Source: Paraburkholderia ginsengiterrae (lineage in GTDB: Bacteria; Pseudomonadota; Gammaproteobacteria; Burkholderiales; Burkholderiaceae). From it: a DNA stretch of 64,000 nt. The stretch lies in the NCBI RefSeq assembly GCF_001645125.1, contig NZ_LXKA01000011.1, positions 151,619 to 215,618 on the forward strand. The letters run 5' to 3'. The position numbers and the translations under genes were made by a program. The stretch's first letter is position 1, and each line of letters opens with the position of its first letter. Shown here in pieces: positions 2,084 through 38,525 of the stretch. The notes below the pieces were generated by a model, which did not search any database, was not told the DNA's origin, and saw nothing but the letters and a program-made list of their open reading frames with translations.

Positions 2084-2177
2084 GAGTGGATTCCTCTCCA
2101 GGCGGAGCACAGGAACGGCACCATATCATTGAATTACCGTAGCCGCTTGGGTTTATGGGATCTCGCGTGCGTCTGCC

Positions 2178-3029
2178 TCAAGCGCTCGCCAGCCCACTCG
2201 TCACCAACCGCAGCGTCTCCACCGACCGCTTGTCCCGCACACGCGAATGCAGCGTCACGCGCGACTCCGGCAGTGGCGGCAAACCCAGCCGCGCGCCGAC
2301 GTCGACCAGTCCGCGCGGCGCCACTCTGCGCGCGAGCGGCGACACCGCCAGCCCCGCCGCCACCGCGGCGCCCACGGCGGCCACGCCGCCGCCCACGAAC
2401 ACCTCCTGCCAGCCGATACCAGCCTCCACGAGCGTTCGCAGCGCCACGTCGCGCACGTTGCACGGCGGACTCAATAGCGCCAGCGCCAACGGCTCGCCGA
2501 CGCGCGGCAGCCAGGCCGGCGTGGCGAGCCAGCCAAGCGGTTCGCTGAACAAAGCCTGGGCGTCGTCGCGCGGAGGCTCGTCGGCGCCGTAGCGGACGAT
2601 CGCCGCGTCGAGACGGCGTTCGTCGAATTGCGCCAGCAGCGCCGCCGACGTACCCAGATGCAATTCGACGACCAAACCCGGATCGTGGGCATTGAGCCGC
2701 CCGAGCAACAGCGGCAGGTCCGGCCCCGCGACATGCTCGCTCAGCCCCAGCACGAGCCGCCGCCGCTCGATCGACAGCGAGCCCAGCGCGCGTTCATGCG
2801 CGTTCAACAGGTCGCGGGCCGCGCCGAGAAACGCGTTGCCGTCCGCGGAGAGGCGCACCACGCGGGGCGTGCGCTCCAGCAATTGCTTGCCCAGATGCGC
2901 TTCGAGCCGCTTGAGCTTCAGGCTGACGGCCGATTGCGTGGTGTCGAGCGCGTCCGCGGCACGCGTGAAACTGTGCAGATCGGCGACCAGAACGAAGGCC
3001 CGAACCGCATCGAGATCGAGGACTTTCAT
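2178..3029 (-). CDS. LysR-family transcriptional regulator
   Basis: A 283-residue LysR-type regulator. The N-terminal winged helix-turn-helix (residues 1-60) reads LDAVRAFVLVADLHSFTRAADA then TTQSAVSLKLKRLEAHLG, the classic LysR recognition helix. The effector-binding domain (about 90-280) has the usual SEHVAGPDLPLLLGRL and late AAVAAGLAVSPLARR segments. It is divergent from the tautomerase gene at 3141 with a 111-bp AT-rich spacer, the arrangement expected when the regulator controls that neighbour and itself. The effector cannot be deduced. Confidence 0.9.
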   Translation of the reverse strand: MKVLDLDAVRAFVLVADLHSFTRAADALDTTQSAVSLKLKRLEAHLGKQLLERTPRVVRLSADGNAFLGAARDLLNAHERALGSLSIERRRLVLGLSEHVAGPDLPLLLGRLNAHDPGLVVELHLGTSAALLAQFDERRLDAAIVRYGADEPPRDDAQALFSEPLGWLATPAWLPRVGEPLALALLSPPCNVRDVALRTLVEAGIGWQEVFVGGGVAAVGAAVAAGLAVSPLARRVAPRGLVDVGARLGLPPLPESRVTLHSRVRDKRSVETLRLVTSGLASA

Positions 3030-3140
3030 TTTCAGTATAAATAGATGAAATAATCAATGATGTCTGTTTATTATGACTGAGCGCGCCTAAAGTGTGTTTA
3101 CCCAAGCAACACCACATCAACGCAACCAAGGAGATTCATC

Positions 3141-3524
3141 ATGCCGCTCACACGAATTGCATTGCGCACCGGCAAGTCCGTCGAGTACCGGAAGGCGGTG
3201 TCGGACAGCATCCAGCGCTCGCTGGTGGACACCTTCAACGTGCCGAAGGACGACATCTTCATGCTGATCACCGAGCACGATGCCGGCAATTTTGTGTACG
3301 ACAACCAGTATCTGAACGTCGAGCGCAGCGACGATCTGGTGATGATCCAGATCACGCTCAATAACACCCGCACGCTCGAACAGAAAAAAGCGTTGTACGC
3401 GCGCATGGCGGACGAACTGGCGAAGTCGCCGGGGCTGCGGCGAGAGGACGTGCTCATCAATCTCGTCGAGGTGCTGAAGGAGAACTGGTCGTTCGGCAAC
3501 GGCATTGCGCAGTACGCGCTGTGA
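3141..3524 (+). CDS. Tautomerase family protein
   Basis: A 127-residue tautomerase-superfamily enzyme with two beta-alpha-beta units fused, roughly twice the length of 4-oxalocrotonate tautomerase monomers. Pro2 (MPLTRIAL) would be the catalytic base after Met removal. The rest fits the Tautomerase_2 pattern, including VPKDDIFMLITEHD, NVERSDDLVMIQITL and LRREDVLINLVEV. Its start has AAGGAG about 8 nt upstream. The probable regulator is the divergent LysR gene. The substrate is unknown; related enzymes act on small enol or halo-acid compounds. Confidence 0.85.
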   Translation: MPLTRIALRTGKSVEYRKAVSDSIQRSLVDTFNVPKDDIFMLITEHDAGNFVYDNQYLNVERSDDLVMIQITLNNTRTLEQKKALYARMADELAKSPGLRREDVLINLVEVLKENWSFGNGIAQYAL

Positions 3525-3619: not shown

Positions 3620-4456
3620 ATGACATCCGACCACACCGATCCGCGTCACGAACCTCTCGAACTAGGCGGCTCGGTCTGGTTCCAGGCGGGTGCGCAAACG
3701 CTCGGCGGTGCGTCGCGCATCGCGCTGCTCGCGGCGATTGGCGACACCGGATCGATTACCAGTGCGGCGAAAGCCGTCGGGATGAGCTACAAAGGCGCGT
3801 GGGATGCCGTCGACACTATGAACAATCTTGCCGGCGAGCCGCTCGTCGTCCGGCTGACCGGCGGCAAGGGCGGCGGCGGCACCACGCTCACGCCGCGCGC
3901 CGTGAAGCTGATCGAGACGTTTCGCGCGGTGGAGCGCGAGCATCGGCGCTTTCTCGAACGCGCGGGTCAGGTGATCGAAGGGTTCGCGAACGATTGGGAT
4001 CTGATTGGCCGCATCGGCGTGAAGACGAGCGCGCGCAATCAGCTCTATGGCACGGTGTCGGCGATCTCGCGCGGTACTGTCAACGATGAGATCACGCTGG
4101 CGCTGCCCGGCGGTCACGCGATCGTCTCTGTCATCACGCATGAAAGCACCGAGACGCTCGGCCTCGTCGAGGGCGCGGTGGCGTTTGCGCTGATCAAGGC
4201 GTCGTGGGTCGTGCTGCTTGTCGACAACGGCAGCGGGGCGCCGCTCAAGCTGTCGGCGCGTAATCAGCTGCGCGGCACGGTGCAGAGCGTGAAGCGCGGC
4301 GCGATCAATGCCGAGGTGTCGCTGGTGCTGGACGGCGGCGCGGTGATCACCGCGGTCGTCACCAATGAAAGCGCCGATACGCTCGGCCTCGTGGAAGGCG
4401 GCAGCGCTGTCGCGGCATTCAAGGCATCGAGCGTGATACTCGGAGTGAAGGACTGA
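3620..4456 (+). CDS. modE: Molybdate-responsive transcriptional regulator ModE
   Basis: ModE binds molybdate and represses the modABC uptake operon. The 278-residue length agrees with the two-part architecture seen here. The N-terminal winged helix-turn-helix covers about residues 20-110 (LLAAIGDTGSITSAAKAVGM, then SYKGAWDAVDTMNN). It is followed by two TOBE/Mop molybdate-binding repeats starting at TSARNQLYGTV (about 135-200) and LSARNQLRGTV (about 210-275). The gene is convergent with modC, whose 3' end is 34 bp away. A TATAAT lies at 3575-3580 but no convincing -35 was found. Confidence 0.95.
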   Translation: MTSDHTDPRHEPLELGGSVWFQAGAQTLGGASRIALLAAIGDTGSITSAAKAVGMSYKGAWDAVDTMNNLAGEPLVVRLTGGKGGGGTTLTPRAVKLIETFRAVEREHRRFLERAGQVIEGFANDWDLIGRIGVKTSARNQLYGTVSAISRGTVNDEITLALPGGHAIVSVITHESTETLGLVEGAVAFALIKASWVVLLVDNGSGAPLKLSARNQLRGTVQSVKRGAINAEVSLVLDGGAVITAVVTNESADTLGLVEGGSAVAAFKASSVILGVKD

Positions 4457-33920: not shown

Positions 33921-35792
33921 GTGATTCCACCGTCATTCCTGCAGGATCTGCTCAACCGCGTCGATATTGTCGACGTGGTCGGCCGGTATGTGCAGTTGAA
34001 AAAGGGCGGCGCGAACTTCATGGGGCTGTGCCCGTTCCACAACGAAAAAAGCCCCTCGTTTACGGTTAGTCCGACTAAACAGTTCTATCACTGCTTCGGC
34101 TGCGGTGCGCATGGTACGGCCATCGGGTTCTTGATGGAGCACGTCGGCTCGTCGTTTCCGGAGGCGGTCAACGAGCTGGCGCAGTCGGTTGGCTTGACCG
34201 TGCCAAACGAACCTTCGCCAGGATATGGCGGTGGTTCGTCAGGCGGCGGCTATGCGCCGGCGGCATCCAAGGCGGTTACCACGGCGCTTTCCGACGTGAT
34301 GCAGACAGCCTGCGACTTTTATCGCAAGCAACTGCGCGGCGCGCCGACCGCGATCCAGTACCTGAAGAAACGGGGCTTGACCGGCGAGATCGCGGCCCGT
34401 TTCGGGCTCGGATATGCGCCGGATGGCTGGCAAAACCTCGAAGCGGCATTTTCGAACTACCGGGACGATTCGCTGGTCGAATCAGGTCTGGTGATCGTCA
34501 GCGAAAAGTCCGATGCACAGGGCCAGAACCGCCGCTACGACCGCTTTCGCGAGCGGATCATGTTCCCGATACGCAATGTGAAGGGGCAGGTGATCGGCTT
34601 TGGCGGCCGCGTACTGGACAGCGGCGAGCCCAAATATTTGAATTCGCCCGAAACGCCGCTATTTAACAAGGGCAGCGAGCTGTACGGGCTGTTCGAGGCG
34701 CGTTTGGCGATTCGCGAGCAGCACTACGTGCTGGTCGTGGAAGGCTACATGGACGTGGTCGCCCTGGCCCAATTGGGGTTCCAGAACGCGGTCGCCACGC
34801 TCGGCACGGCCTGCACGCCGATTCACGTGCAGAAGCTGATGCGCCAGACCGACACGGTCATTTTCAGTTTCGACGGCGATTCGGCCGGCCGGCGCGCCGC
34901 GCGCCGTGCGCTGGACGCCTGTTTGCCGCACGCGGCGGACAACCGGACCATCCGGTTCCTGTTCCTGCCGTCCGAGCACGATCCGGACAGCTACGTGCGT
35001 GAATTCGGCACCGAAGCGTTCGCCGAACAGGTCGAGCGGGCCATGCCGCTGTCGCAGTTCATGCTGAACGAGGTGCTGACCGGCAAGGAACTGGATCAGC
35101 CGGAAGGCAGGGCCCGCGCGCTGTTCGACGCCAAGCCGCTGTTGCAGGCACTGCCGGCCAACGCGCTGCGCGCGCAGATCATGCATATGTTCGCCGACCG
35201 GCTCGACGTGCCGTTCGAGGAAGTCGCCGCGCTTTGCGAGGTCGACGCGCGCATCGCGGCGGCGGCCCGCGCGGCCCCGGCCCGCAAGGATCGGCGCAGT
35301 GTGACCGGGATCGAGGAAAAGACGCTGCGCAACCTGGTGATGCATCCGCGCACGGTGGCCGTGCTCGACGAAGAGGCCGAGCAGGCGCTCCTGACGGTCA
35401 CGCGGCACGGGGAACTGTTCGAGGAAGTGACGACGCATGCGCGTGCGCTGGGCGACTCGGCGGAGTTTCAGCTGTTGTCCGATCTATTGCGAAACGGCGC
35501 TAACGCCCCAACTTTCGAGGAAATCTTTCGCAAAATTCTAGACTATGATGAAAACGTCCGGGATTTGCTGCTGAAGGACCCGGAGGATGCGACCGTCATA
35601 GAGGAACGGCGCGAGCAGGAACGGATCGTCGGAGAAGAGCTGAAGGCAGCCATTCTGAAGATGCGGTATGACGCTTATTGCGATCGTCTCGAGCAACTTT
35701 CGCGGCAATCCCGGCACACGCCGGAGGAGTTTGCGGAGCTGTCGGAGCTCAATCGGAAGCGGGCTGACATGAAGCGTCAGCTGGGTCTGTAA
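33921..35792 (+). CDS. dnaG: DNA primase
   Basis: A 623-residue primase that makes RNA primers at the replication fork. The start is a GTG (MIPPSFLQDLLNRVDIVDVV). The zinc-binding domain has CPFH ... YHCFGCGAHG (CHC2 type). The catalytic TOPRIM domain includes YVLVVEGYMDVVALAQLGF and TVIFSFDGDSAGRRAARRAL. The C-terminal part, from about residue 450, is the helicase-interacting region and is Ala/Glu-rich. It sits between yqeY and rpoD. Confidence 0.96.
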   Translation: MIPPSFLQDLLNRVDIVDVVGRYVQLKKGGANFMGLCPFHNEKSPSFTVSPTKQFYHCFGCGAHGTAIGFLMEHVGSSFPEAVNELAQSVGLTVPNEPSPGYGGGSSGGGYAPAASKAVTTALSDVMQTACDFYRKQLRGAPTAIQYLKKRGLTGEIAARFGLGYAPDGWQNLEAAFSNYRDDSLVESGLVIVSEKSDAQGQNRRYDRFRERIMFPIRNVKGQVIGFGGRVLDSGEPKYLNSPETPLFNKGSELYGLFEARLAIREQHYVLVVEGYMDVVALAQLGFQNAVATLGTACTPIHVQKLMRQTDTVIFSFDGDSAGRRAARRALDACLPHAADNRTIRFLFLPSEHDPDSYVREFGTEAFAEQVERAMPLSQFMLNEVLTGKELDQPEGRARALFDAKPLLQALPANALRAQIMHMFADRLDVPFEEVAALCEVDARIAAAARAAPARKDRRSVTGIEEKTLRNLVMHPRTVAVLDEEAEQALLTVTRHGELFEEVTTHARALGDSAEFQLLSDLLRNGANAPTFEEIFRKILDYDENVRDLLLKDPEDATVIEERREQERIVGEELKAAILKMRYDAYCDRLEQLSRQSRHTPEEFAELSELNRKRADMKRQLGL

Positions 35793-35894: not shown

Positions 35895-38285
<2,391 letters not shown>

Positions 38286-38407: not shown

Positions 38408-38434
38408 GACCCGGCTTTCAGACCGGGTCTTTTT
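38408..38434 (+). terminator. Terminator-like hairpin directly before the tRNA gene
   Basis: GACCCGG (38408-38414) pairs with CCGGGTC (38423-38429) with an 8-nt loop and is followed by TTTTT. It ends 3 nt before the tRNA 5' end, inside the presumed tRNA leader, so it could attenuate tRNA transcription or be a second terminator of rpoD. Confidence 0.65.
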
Positions 38435-38437
38435 CTT

Positions 38438-38525
38438 GGGCCGGACGCCGTGCTGGTTGCAGGCAGCGGACTCATAATCCGCCTCCGAAAGGACACCGTG
38501 GGTTCGACTCCCACCCGGCCCACCA
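38438..38525 (+). tRNA. tRNA with CAU anticodon, Ile2-like anticodon loop and long variable region
   Basis: A full cloverleaf can be drawn: a perfect 7-bp acceptor (GGGCCGG with CCGGCCC), discriminator A, encoded CCA, anticodon stem GCGGA/TCCGC and loop CTCATAA. The T-arm is GTGGG-TTCGACT-CCCAC. The anticodon loop equals that of E. coli tRNA-Ile2, and acceptor pairs C4:G69 and C5:G68 are those reported to favour the lysidine synthetase TilS. Unusual points: A8 and T14 replace the near-universal T8 and A14, the D-stem has only three strong pairs, and the variable region is 15 nt with a TCC-GAAA-GGA mini-hairpin, as in class II tRNAs. Decoding as Ile (AUA) is likely; Met cannot be excluded. Confidence 0.85.

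Follow-up and report, generated by a model that had tools for sequence, protein, structure and literature searches.

A class II-like tRNA-Ile2 of a mobile, and probably phage, gene lineage is the likely sole AUA decoder of Paraburkholderia ginsengiterrae

tRNA-Ile2 normally has a class I body, and TilS, which acts on it, is regarded as an essential enzyme. A tRNA gene lying 3' of rpoD in Paraburkholderia ginsengiterrae combines the CAU anticodon of tRNA-Ile2 with a long, stemmed variable region, and raises the question of whether such a body can serve a cell as tRNA-Ile2 and, if so, where it came from. The gene lies in a 64,000-nucleotide stretch of contig NZ_LXKA01000011.1, analysed here as a whole and called the window. 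We refer to the 88-nt form of the gene as type D. The features of the locus are as follows.

33921–35792, + strand: dnaG, 5' of rpoD, with AUA at residue 217 (Ile in 43/43 relatives that use a codon other than AUA) and at residue 560 (variable)
35895–38285, + strand: rpoD, the usual 5' neighbour of tRNA-Ile2
38408–38429, + strand: terminator-like GC hairpin followed by a T run to 38437, ending just 5' of the tRNA; a pattern match only
38438–38525, + strand: tRNA-Ile2(CAU), class II-like type D, 88 nt, CCA encoded (ARAGORN, Rfam, family model)
38438–38444, + strand: acceptor 5' strand GGGCCGG, paired with 38515–38521 and including G3:C70, C4:G69 and C5:G68 (sequence)
38445, + strand: A8, where ordinary tRNAs have T; invariant in 34/34 aligned family sequences
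38447–38464, + strand: D arm with a 3-bp stem GCC/GGC; T14 at 38451, G15 at 38452, GG at 38455–38456 (sequence, family alignment)
38466–38482, + strand: anticodon arm with loop CTCATAA; anticodon CAT at 38473–38475 (sequence, ARAGORN)
38483–38497, + strand: variable region of 15 nt; 3-bp hairpin of 38484–38486 with 38491–38493; C48 at 38497, partner of G15 (covariation)
38498–38514, + strand: T arm (sequence)

ARAGORN called a tRNA with the anticodon CAT at exactly these coordinates on the + strand, the sole tRNA in the window, and Rfam RF00005 (gathering cut-off, 29 bits) matched 38438–38522 with 44.7 bits, most of the variable region being treated as an insert. The sequence bore out the perfectly paired acceptor, anticodon and T arms and the encoded CCA described in the initial annotation: the stems GGGCCGG/CCGGCCC, GCGGA/TCCGC and GTGGG/CCCAC contain no mismatch, and A73 and CCA are present in the gene. 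The A8 and T14 bases, the D stem of three pairs and the 15-nt variable region with a mini-hairpin (CTCCGAAAGGACACC, pairing as TCC-GAAA-GGA) were also as described. The predicted fold of −42.6 kcal/mol was better than those of 200/200 dinucleotide shuffles (z = −3.0), and the gene scored 107.9 bits against the family model R1, the alignment of which contains the window tRNA itself. The body thus lacks the class I combination of a variable region of 4–5 nt with T8/A14, and instead has a variable region longer than 10 nt with a conserved stem and an intact Levitt pair, 15-48, as in class II tRNAs (Ser, Leu and Tyr), with which it also shares Ser-like letters in the D arm. It differs from them in its Ile anticodon and acceptor, in A8/T14, and in a variable stem of only 3 bp followed by four unpaired 3' bases. 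Compared with ordinary tRNA-Ile2, the differences are the 15-nt variable region with its hairpin (against about 5 nt), A8/T14 and the 3-bp D stem. In a literature search consisting mostly of titles, with thin coverage of subscription journals, we recognised no description of a class II-like tRNA-Ile2.

The variable arm was compared across 31 distinct bacterial and plasmid haplotypes, 30 of which aligned without gaps (L310, with T at position 1, was left out). All three variable-arm pairs were kept in 30/30 haplotypes, with both-sided changes of UA/GC, CG/GC and CG/AU. The hairpin looks to be under selection, because each of its three pairs was maintained throughout with compensatory changes, and the class II-like variable arm of the initial annotation is thereby substantiated. 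For the same reason, the comparative evidence indicates that the tRNA at 38438–38525 is real and intact, a product of neither chance nor decay.

A second alignment of 34 viral and bacterial rows (A2), which left out two viral sequences with longer stems (L419 and L462) and 26 bacterial haplotypes, had 99.2% of its cells paired and both-sided changes at 22/26 pairs. The Levitt pair 15-48 was AU in 23 and GC in 11 of its rows with no exception, and GC in 34 and AT in 23 of 57 distinct A8/T14 sequences. Where a CAU tRNA combined a 3-bp D stem with a variable region of 15 nt, positions 8 and 14 were AT in 57 cases, TA in 15 and other in seven; nine further CAU tRNAs without the 3-bp D stem were excluded from this tally. 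L419 and L462, both among the seven, possess a longer D stem, and in alignment their bases fall as A8/T14. These counts favour a swapped 8-14 pair but fall short of proof, A22 being a possible partner of T14. The earlier view that the pair is swapped rather than lost therefore holds as far as the bases A8 and T14 are concerned, and the pairing of A8 with T14 stays unproven within the family, in which neither base varies (34/34).

The alternative partner matters because the tRNA sequence of the window, folded by itself to minimum energy, forms a bulged D stem of 6 bp in which T14 is paired with A22. An arm closed in this way, somewhat as in tRNA-Sec, could take the place of the 8-14 swap as an explanation; the invariance of both T14 and A22 is compatible with this reading. 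The 15-21 pair of the longer stem, on the other hand, is impossible in 23/34 relatives, while 15-48 is intact in 34/34. Since relatives break the former and keep the latter, the cloverleaf with the 3-bp D stem appears to be the better model, and the closed D arm, which we consider improbable, was set aside.

We then asked what the tRNA would decode. In the host draft genome (393 contigs, rated 100% complete), 150 of 160 candidates were scored and 54 tRNA matches lay above the cut-off; all 54 were read. Four have the anticodon CAT: by sequence reading, two initiators, one elongator tRNA-Met (C3:G70) and the window tRNA. The last is the only CAU tRNA among the 54 with C4:G69 and C5:G68, and it also has G3:C70. 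Excerpts of PMC12514573 give C4:G69 and C5:G68 as the elements recognised by E. coli TilS, and G3:C70 and an 11-nt D loop as additional needs of the Burkholderia cenocepacia enzyme. Type D thus shares CAU and A73 with ordinary tRNA-Ile2, G3:C70 with that of B. cenocepacia and C4:G69 and C5:G68 with that of E. coli, and, as with ordinary tRNA-Ile2, TilS is encoded in the host genome (one gene above the family cut-off and a second, weaker match below it). With these features present and a UAU tRNA-Ile absent, the window tRNA is, judged by its anticodon and acceptor pairs, a tRNA-Ile2 of the lysidine type, in agreement with the identity first proposed from CAU and the loop. The search for a second canonical tRNA-Ile2 suggested by the initial annotation was run on the whole genome, and neither such a gene nor a UAU tRNA was found among the 54 matches; therefore, AUA decoding in this genome very likely depends on the window tRNA alone. 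TilS would convert C34 to lysidine and IleRS would charge the tRNA, whereupon AUA would be read as isoleucine. The gene is functional-looking in this role, with lysidine formation and charging as inferred steps.

The 3' part of the tRNA is duplicated as element ends in the host genome and in relatives, which could mean that the gene is merely an attachment pseudo-tRNA of a mobile element and that another gene decodes AUA. We regard this as very improbable and rejected it: AUA would be left without a decoder among the remaining tRNAs of the genome, as the 54 matches hold no further Ile2 or UAU tRNA, and the full-length genes hold their stems nearly always (99.7% of cells paired in 30 haplotypes).

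AUA is rare, accounting for 23 of 13,565 codons in 37 selected window ORFs. At 16 DnaG and RpoD positions occupied by AUA in type D genomes, isoleucine is the commonest residue at 11 where relatives use another codon. Seven of the 16 are at least 99% Ile (43/43, 47/47, 48/48, 83/83, 179/179, 178/179 and 196/196), three more are mainly Ile (72/83, 89/105 and 158/181), and at DnaG 560 Ile is the commonest residue with only 15/46. Five positions are mainly non-Ile (DnaG 101, G; RpoD 9, K; 42, A; 69, T; 110, T), and none of the 16 is mainly Ser or Leu. The counts come from related sequences and are not independent; they fit the reading of AUA as isoleucine in type D hosts. They also bear on a recoding scenario in which AUA is read, as by an allo-tRNA, by a class II tRNA that carries serine or leucine. 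A variable arm is present, and the D arm, GCCGTGCTGGTTGCAGGC, resembles GCCGAGCGGTTTAAGGC of the host's own tRNA-Ser. Nevertheless, the acceptor branch consists of 7 + 5 bp, as opposed to the 8/4 or 9/3 branches of allo-tRNAs described in PMC7609411, and position 73 is A. Neither those divisions nor the 8/5 division of tRNA-Sec, which make up branches of 12 or 13 bp, are seen here. With AUA falling mostly at Ile sites, we rejected recoding, which we regard as very improbable, and retained isoleucine.

How widespread is this body at the post-rpoD locus? The full 88-nt type occurred in 17/100 sampled genomes of the family and in 3/25 genera, and a pattern for any tRNA-Ile2 with a GGGCC acceptor matched 69/100 family genomes and revealed at least four bodies. 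Type A is ordinary (76–77 nt). Type B has 79 nt and an 11-nt D loop, to which the B. cenocepacia tRNA-Ile2, with its 11-nt D loop, conforms. Type C is of ordinary length (77 nt) and has A8, with acceptor and T arms like those of type D (e.g. L236), and type D is the body described above. Each of the four was found directly 3' of rpoD on the same strand; in the family the exceptions were two extra type A-like copies in one genome (G063) and the type D copies of Cupriavidus. A scan of named sequences, which returned at least 119 stretches and is no census, had rpoD at 65/76 type D loci among the matches listed, the other 11 being 10 from Cupriavidus and one cut by the edge of the locus. The type D carriers among the matches listed were Paraburkholderia, Trinickia, Ralstonia, Cupriavidus, 'Burkholderia sp.' and Burkholderiaceae strains. 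Comparison of the post-rpoD locus across Burkholderiaceae, as had been proposed, thus found a tRNA-Ile2 there in relatives, of differing bodies. The type D body occupies the tRNA-Ile2 site of many Paraburkholderia, of Trinickia and of part of Ralstonia, with relatives keeping other bodies. On an rpoD tree of 142 rows, a quick tree with many weak forks, the five states A, B, B with intron, C and D required 16 changes, between the minimum of 4 and the shuffled mean of 51.4. A hairpin similar to the one upstream of the window tRNA was seen 5' of the tRNA in 49/92 type D loci by a crude pattern, and the scan found no sigma-70 promoter 5' of the window tRNA.

Within its own genus, the window tRNA was matched in 124/145 genomes, at full length in 123. 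The 21 other genomes examined comprised 20 without a match and G597, one unlisted genome standing outside the set; an uninterrupted tRNA-Ile2 pattern was found in 0/21. RpoD was recovered in 20 of them, and 18 of these 20 carry a type B 5' exon that breaks off after GGACT. One genome (G499) had no tRNA within the 700 bases read 3' of rpoD, and in G597 a disrupted type D precedes a type B with an interruption; only in G597 was the far exon read. The insert at one other interrupted locus matched Intron_gpI with 25.7 bits in a relaxed search, below the 50-bit cut-off, and no intron was found at the Rfam gathering level in five loci. The tRNAscan-SE 2.0 paper mentions tRNA-Ile2 genes of Burkholderia and Acidovorax that contain group I introns. 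Such intron-bearing genes share gene and locus with the window copy in sister species, and differ from it in body and in the intron, which the window copy lacks.

One TilS match was found in each of 30/30 genomes, and the host TilS shared 83% identity with that of G490, an intron-bearing type B genome, a higher value than for 13 of the 15 type D genomes compared (range, 67–85%). Coevolution of TilS with the tRNA type was rejected on this ground. Because TilS does not track the tRNA type, these identities suggest that one enzyme tolerates several tRNA bodies; types D and B also share the post-rpoD locus.

The 3' part of the gene offers a clue to how bodies might be exchanged.

38468–38525, + strand: 3' part of the tRNA, recurring as an attachment site; a 58/58 identical copy lies at G000:C35:150373–150430 in the same genome

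Several genomes carry an extra 3'-only copy, typically of positions 31–88, often kilobases to more than 100 kb from the intact gene. Copies were compared in 20 chosen stretches. In G501, the arm reads GGA-GAAA-TCC and the T stem GTCGG in the intact gene, but TCC-GAAA-GGA and GTGGG in the end displaced by about 36 kb; G518 shows the same flip of the arm in the reversed direction. The copies of G600 differ only in the T stem and one nearby base, and those of G520 agree. A tyrosine-recombinase gene adjoins the tRNA in G501, and the 27,577-bp plasmid of Paraburkholderia sp. SOS3 encodes a tyrosine recombinase at 2133–3197 next to an attachment sequence at 3314–3373. A 27,577-bp contig of G571 corresponds to this plasmid by length and position; at chromosomal copies in G571 its left flank recurs exactly and its right one is one base shorter. 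From the swapped copies, the recombinases and the recurring flanks, it therefore appears that the elements recombine within the anticodon arm, so that the variable arm, the T arm and the 3' strand of the acceptor are replaced. One window ORF 3' of the tRNA was compared with PHROG and gave no match.

In G597, about 81 kb separate the 3' part of the type D gene from the rest, the break falling after the anticodon loop, and the DNA between the two halves includes a type B tRNA-Ile2 that is complete and carries an intron. As read from this arrangement, it is a takeover of tRNA-Ile2 seen in one genome. Turnover at the locus appears to be driven, at least partly, by integrative elements with tyrosine recombinases that exchange the 3' half, and the inserted DNA may bring a complete alternative tRNA-Ile2, as in G597. 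Cupriavidus shows type D detached from this site: type B adjoins rpoD in 7/7 genomes examined, and 12 type D copies (1–3 per genome in seven genomes) lie on other contigs without rpoD nearby. Nine Cupriavidus plasmid records match most of the window tRNA, and the four that were read all contain the full type D (4/4).

A pattern scan of 399 genomes of the order, which demanded the GGGCC acceptor, matched two, the host's own and one congener, and a class-wide scan of 369 genomes with R1, scoring 12 candidates per genome, recovered type D only in the host genome; two other matches (71.1 and 68.7 bits) both lack the CTCATAA loop. Scans of IMG/VR gave 24, 36 and 93 stretches, which contained 60 different CAU tRNAs, all full and with a variable region of 15 nt. 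Of these 60, 29 have A8/T14, three of them identical to bacterial ones. An acceptor-free pattern accounted for the 93 viral stretches, as compared with 1/369 class genomes, the host's own. Among 20 viral stretches, 12 carry at least four tRNA or tmRNA genes (22 in L396 and 21 in L402), six carry a second, ordinary-sized CAU tRNA, and contigs reach 337 kb. A8/T14, the D arm and the 15-nt variable arm are thus present in viral contigs with further tRNA genes nearby, as would be expected of a phage lineage.

PHROG matches were obtained for 20 of 30 chosen proteins from the viral stretches, many to families of no known function and others to phage DNA polymerase, DnaB helicase, UvsX-like recombinases and a virion structural protein. 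The phage nature of L395, L394 and L401 is well supported, and that of the remaining viral stretches is likely. Three sampled viral-contig proteins resemble those of phages of cyanobacteria, Pseudomonas and other bacteria, and no Burkholderiaceae phage was among their listed best matches.

Three further observations were made in the viral contigs. L412 carries two adjacent members of the family at 3704–3897, with the anticodons CAT and AAT. Genes labelled tRNA-Ile(UAU) in L394 (10039–10129), L405 (1238–1329) and L398 (12833–12927) measure 91–95 nt, over the ordinary length. L445, L424, L434 and others combine TGCGGGG- or TGCGGGA-type acceptors with CAU and 15-nt variable regions, and are initiator-like.

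INPHARED contained no phage match covering more than 80% of the window tRNA, and the best named-phage matches are annotated simply as tRNA-Lys and tRNA-Asn. These class II-like phage tRNAs, Lys(CUU) and Asn(GUU), occur in Rhodobacter phage RcXuper and in Roseobacter/Ruegeria and Salmonella/Escherichia phages. The two copies read, Lys(CUU) of RcXuper and Asn(GUU) of KKP_3822 (L361, 373–460, and L362, 371–458), have 88 nt and a 15-nt variable region as in type D, and the T stem of the Lys gene is identical; unlike type D, they have T8 and other anticodons. Phages may more generally give class II-like bodies to tRNAs of class I identity.

In which direction did the gene move? The 28 viral sequences have a mean identity of 73.1% (minimum, 53.3%) and the 31 bacterial ones 91.1% (81.8%), the bacterial set coming from narrower searches (GGGCC acceptor or similarity to the window tRNA) that limited its diversity by design. 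The nearest viral sequence is 94.3% identical to a bacterial one. In a tRNA tree of 88 columns, the bacterial–viral forks lack resolution: grouping the bacterial sequences together is rejected only at p-AU 0.037, grouping the viral ones is not rejected (0.10), and a tree this short does not show direction. The type could have arisen within Burkholderiaceae through relaxed selection on a rarely used tRNA, with phages and plasmids taking up host copies, an origin compatible with the rarity of AUA, with the oddities of the core in ordinary-sized relatives (A8 with type D arms in type C; the 11-nt D loop of type B) and with the three viral A8/T14 sequences that are identical to bacterial ones. We consider this origin unlikely: the viral set is the more diverse, albeit against narrower bacterial searches, the single acceptor-free pattern was far commoner in viral stretches than in class genomes, and the tight covariation of the stems speaks against relaxed selection.

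We favour the opposite course, in which the type D body is a member of a mobile and phage tRNA-Ile2 gene lineage and would have passed from phage to bacterium. That a class II-like tRNA of this lineage became the sole AUA decoder is, on the genomic comparisons, likely, the direction of transfer being our inference. The initial annotation had proposed that, were this the only AUA decoder, the core of the lysidine-modified tRNA had been rebuilt. The likely sole decoder and the rebuilt core both stand; the rebuilding is probably not confined to the host lineage, since the 88-nt type is common to plasmids and viral contigs. Phage tRNAs are reported in PMC11555353 and PMC12409363 to counter host tRNA-cutting systems, and a changed body could protect the tRNA from cleaving enzymes, provided that TilS and IleRS still accept it. 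A fuller scenario, plausible but tentative, is that a class II-like tRNA-Ile2 evolved in phages, possibly reshaped against tRNA-cleaving defences, was captured as the sole AUA decoder in many species of several genera, and that the post-rpoD locus is an arena of repeated replacement among phage-type, intron-bearing and ordinary genes.

Taken together, a class II-like body with an altered 8-14 contact seems to serve many species as tRNA-Ile2 and is common to phages and plasmids, in a lineage that is mobile and probably also of phages. This bears on what TilS, IleRS and the ribosome require of the tRNA core. It also bears on whether mobile DNA can take over essential tRNA genes: exchange of the essential AUA decoder appears to be the work of mobile elements, and it is partly readable from the junctions of the elements. 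If the fuller scenario of capture is true, cellular translation in these bacteria would depend on a core tRNA of viral type.
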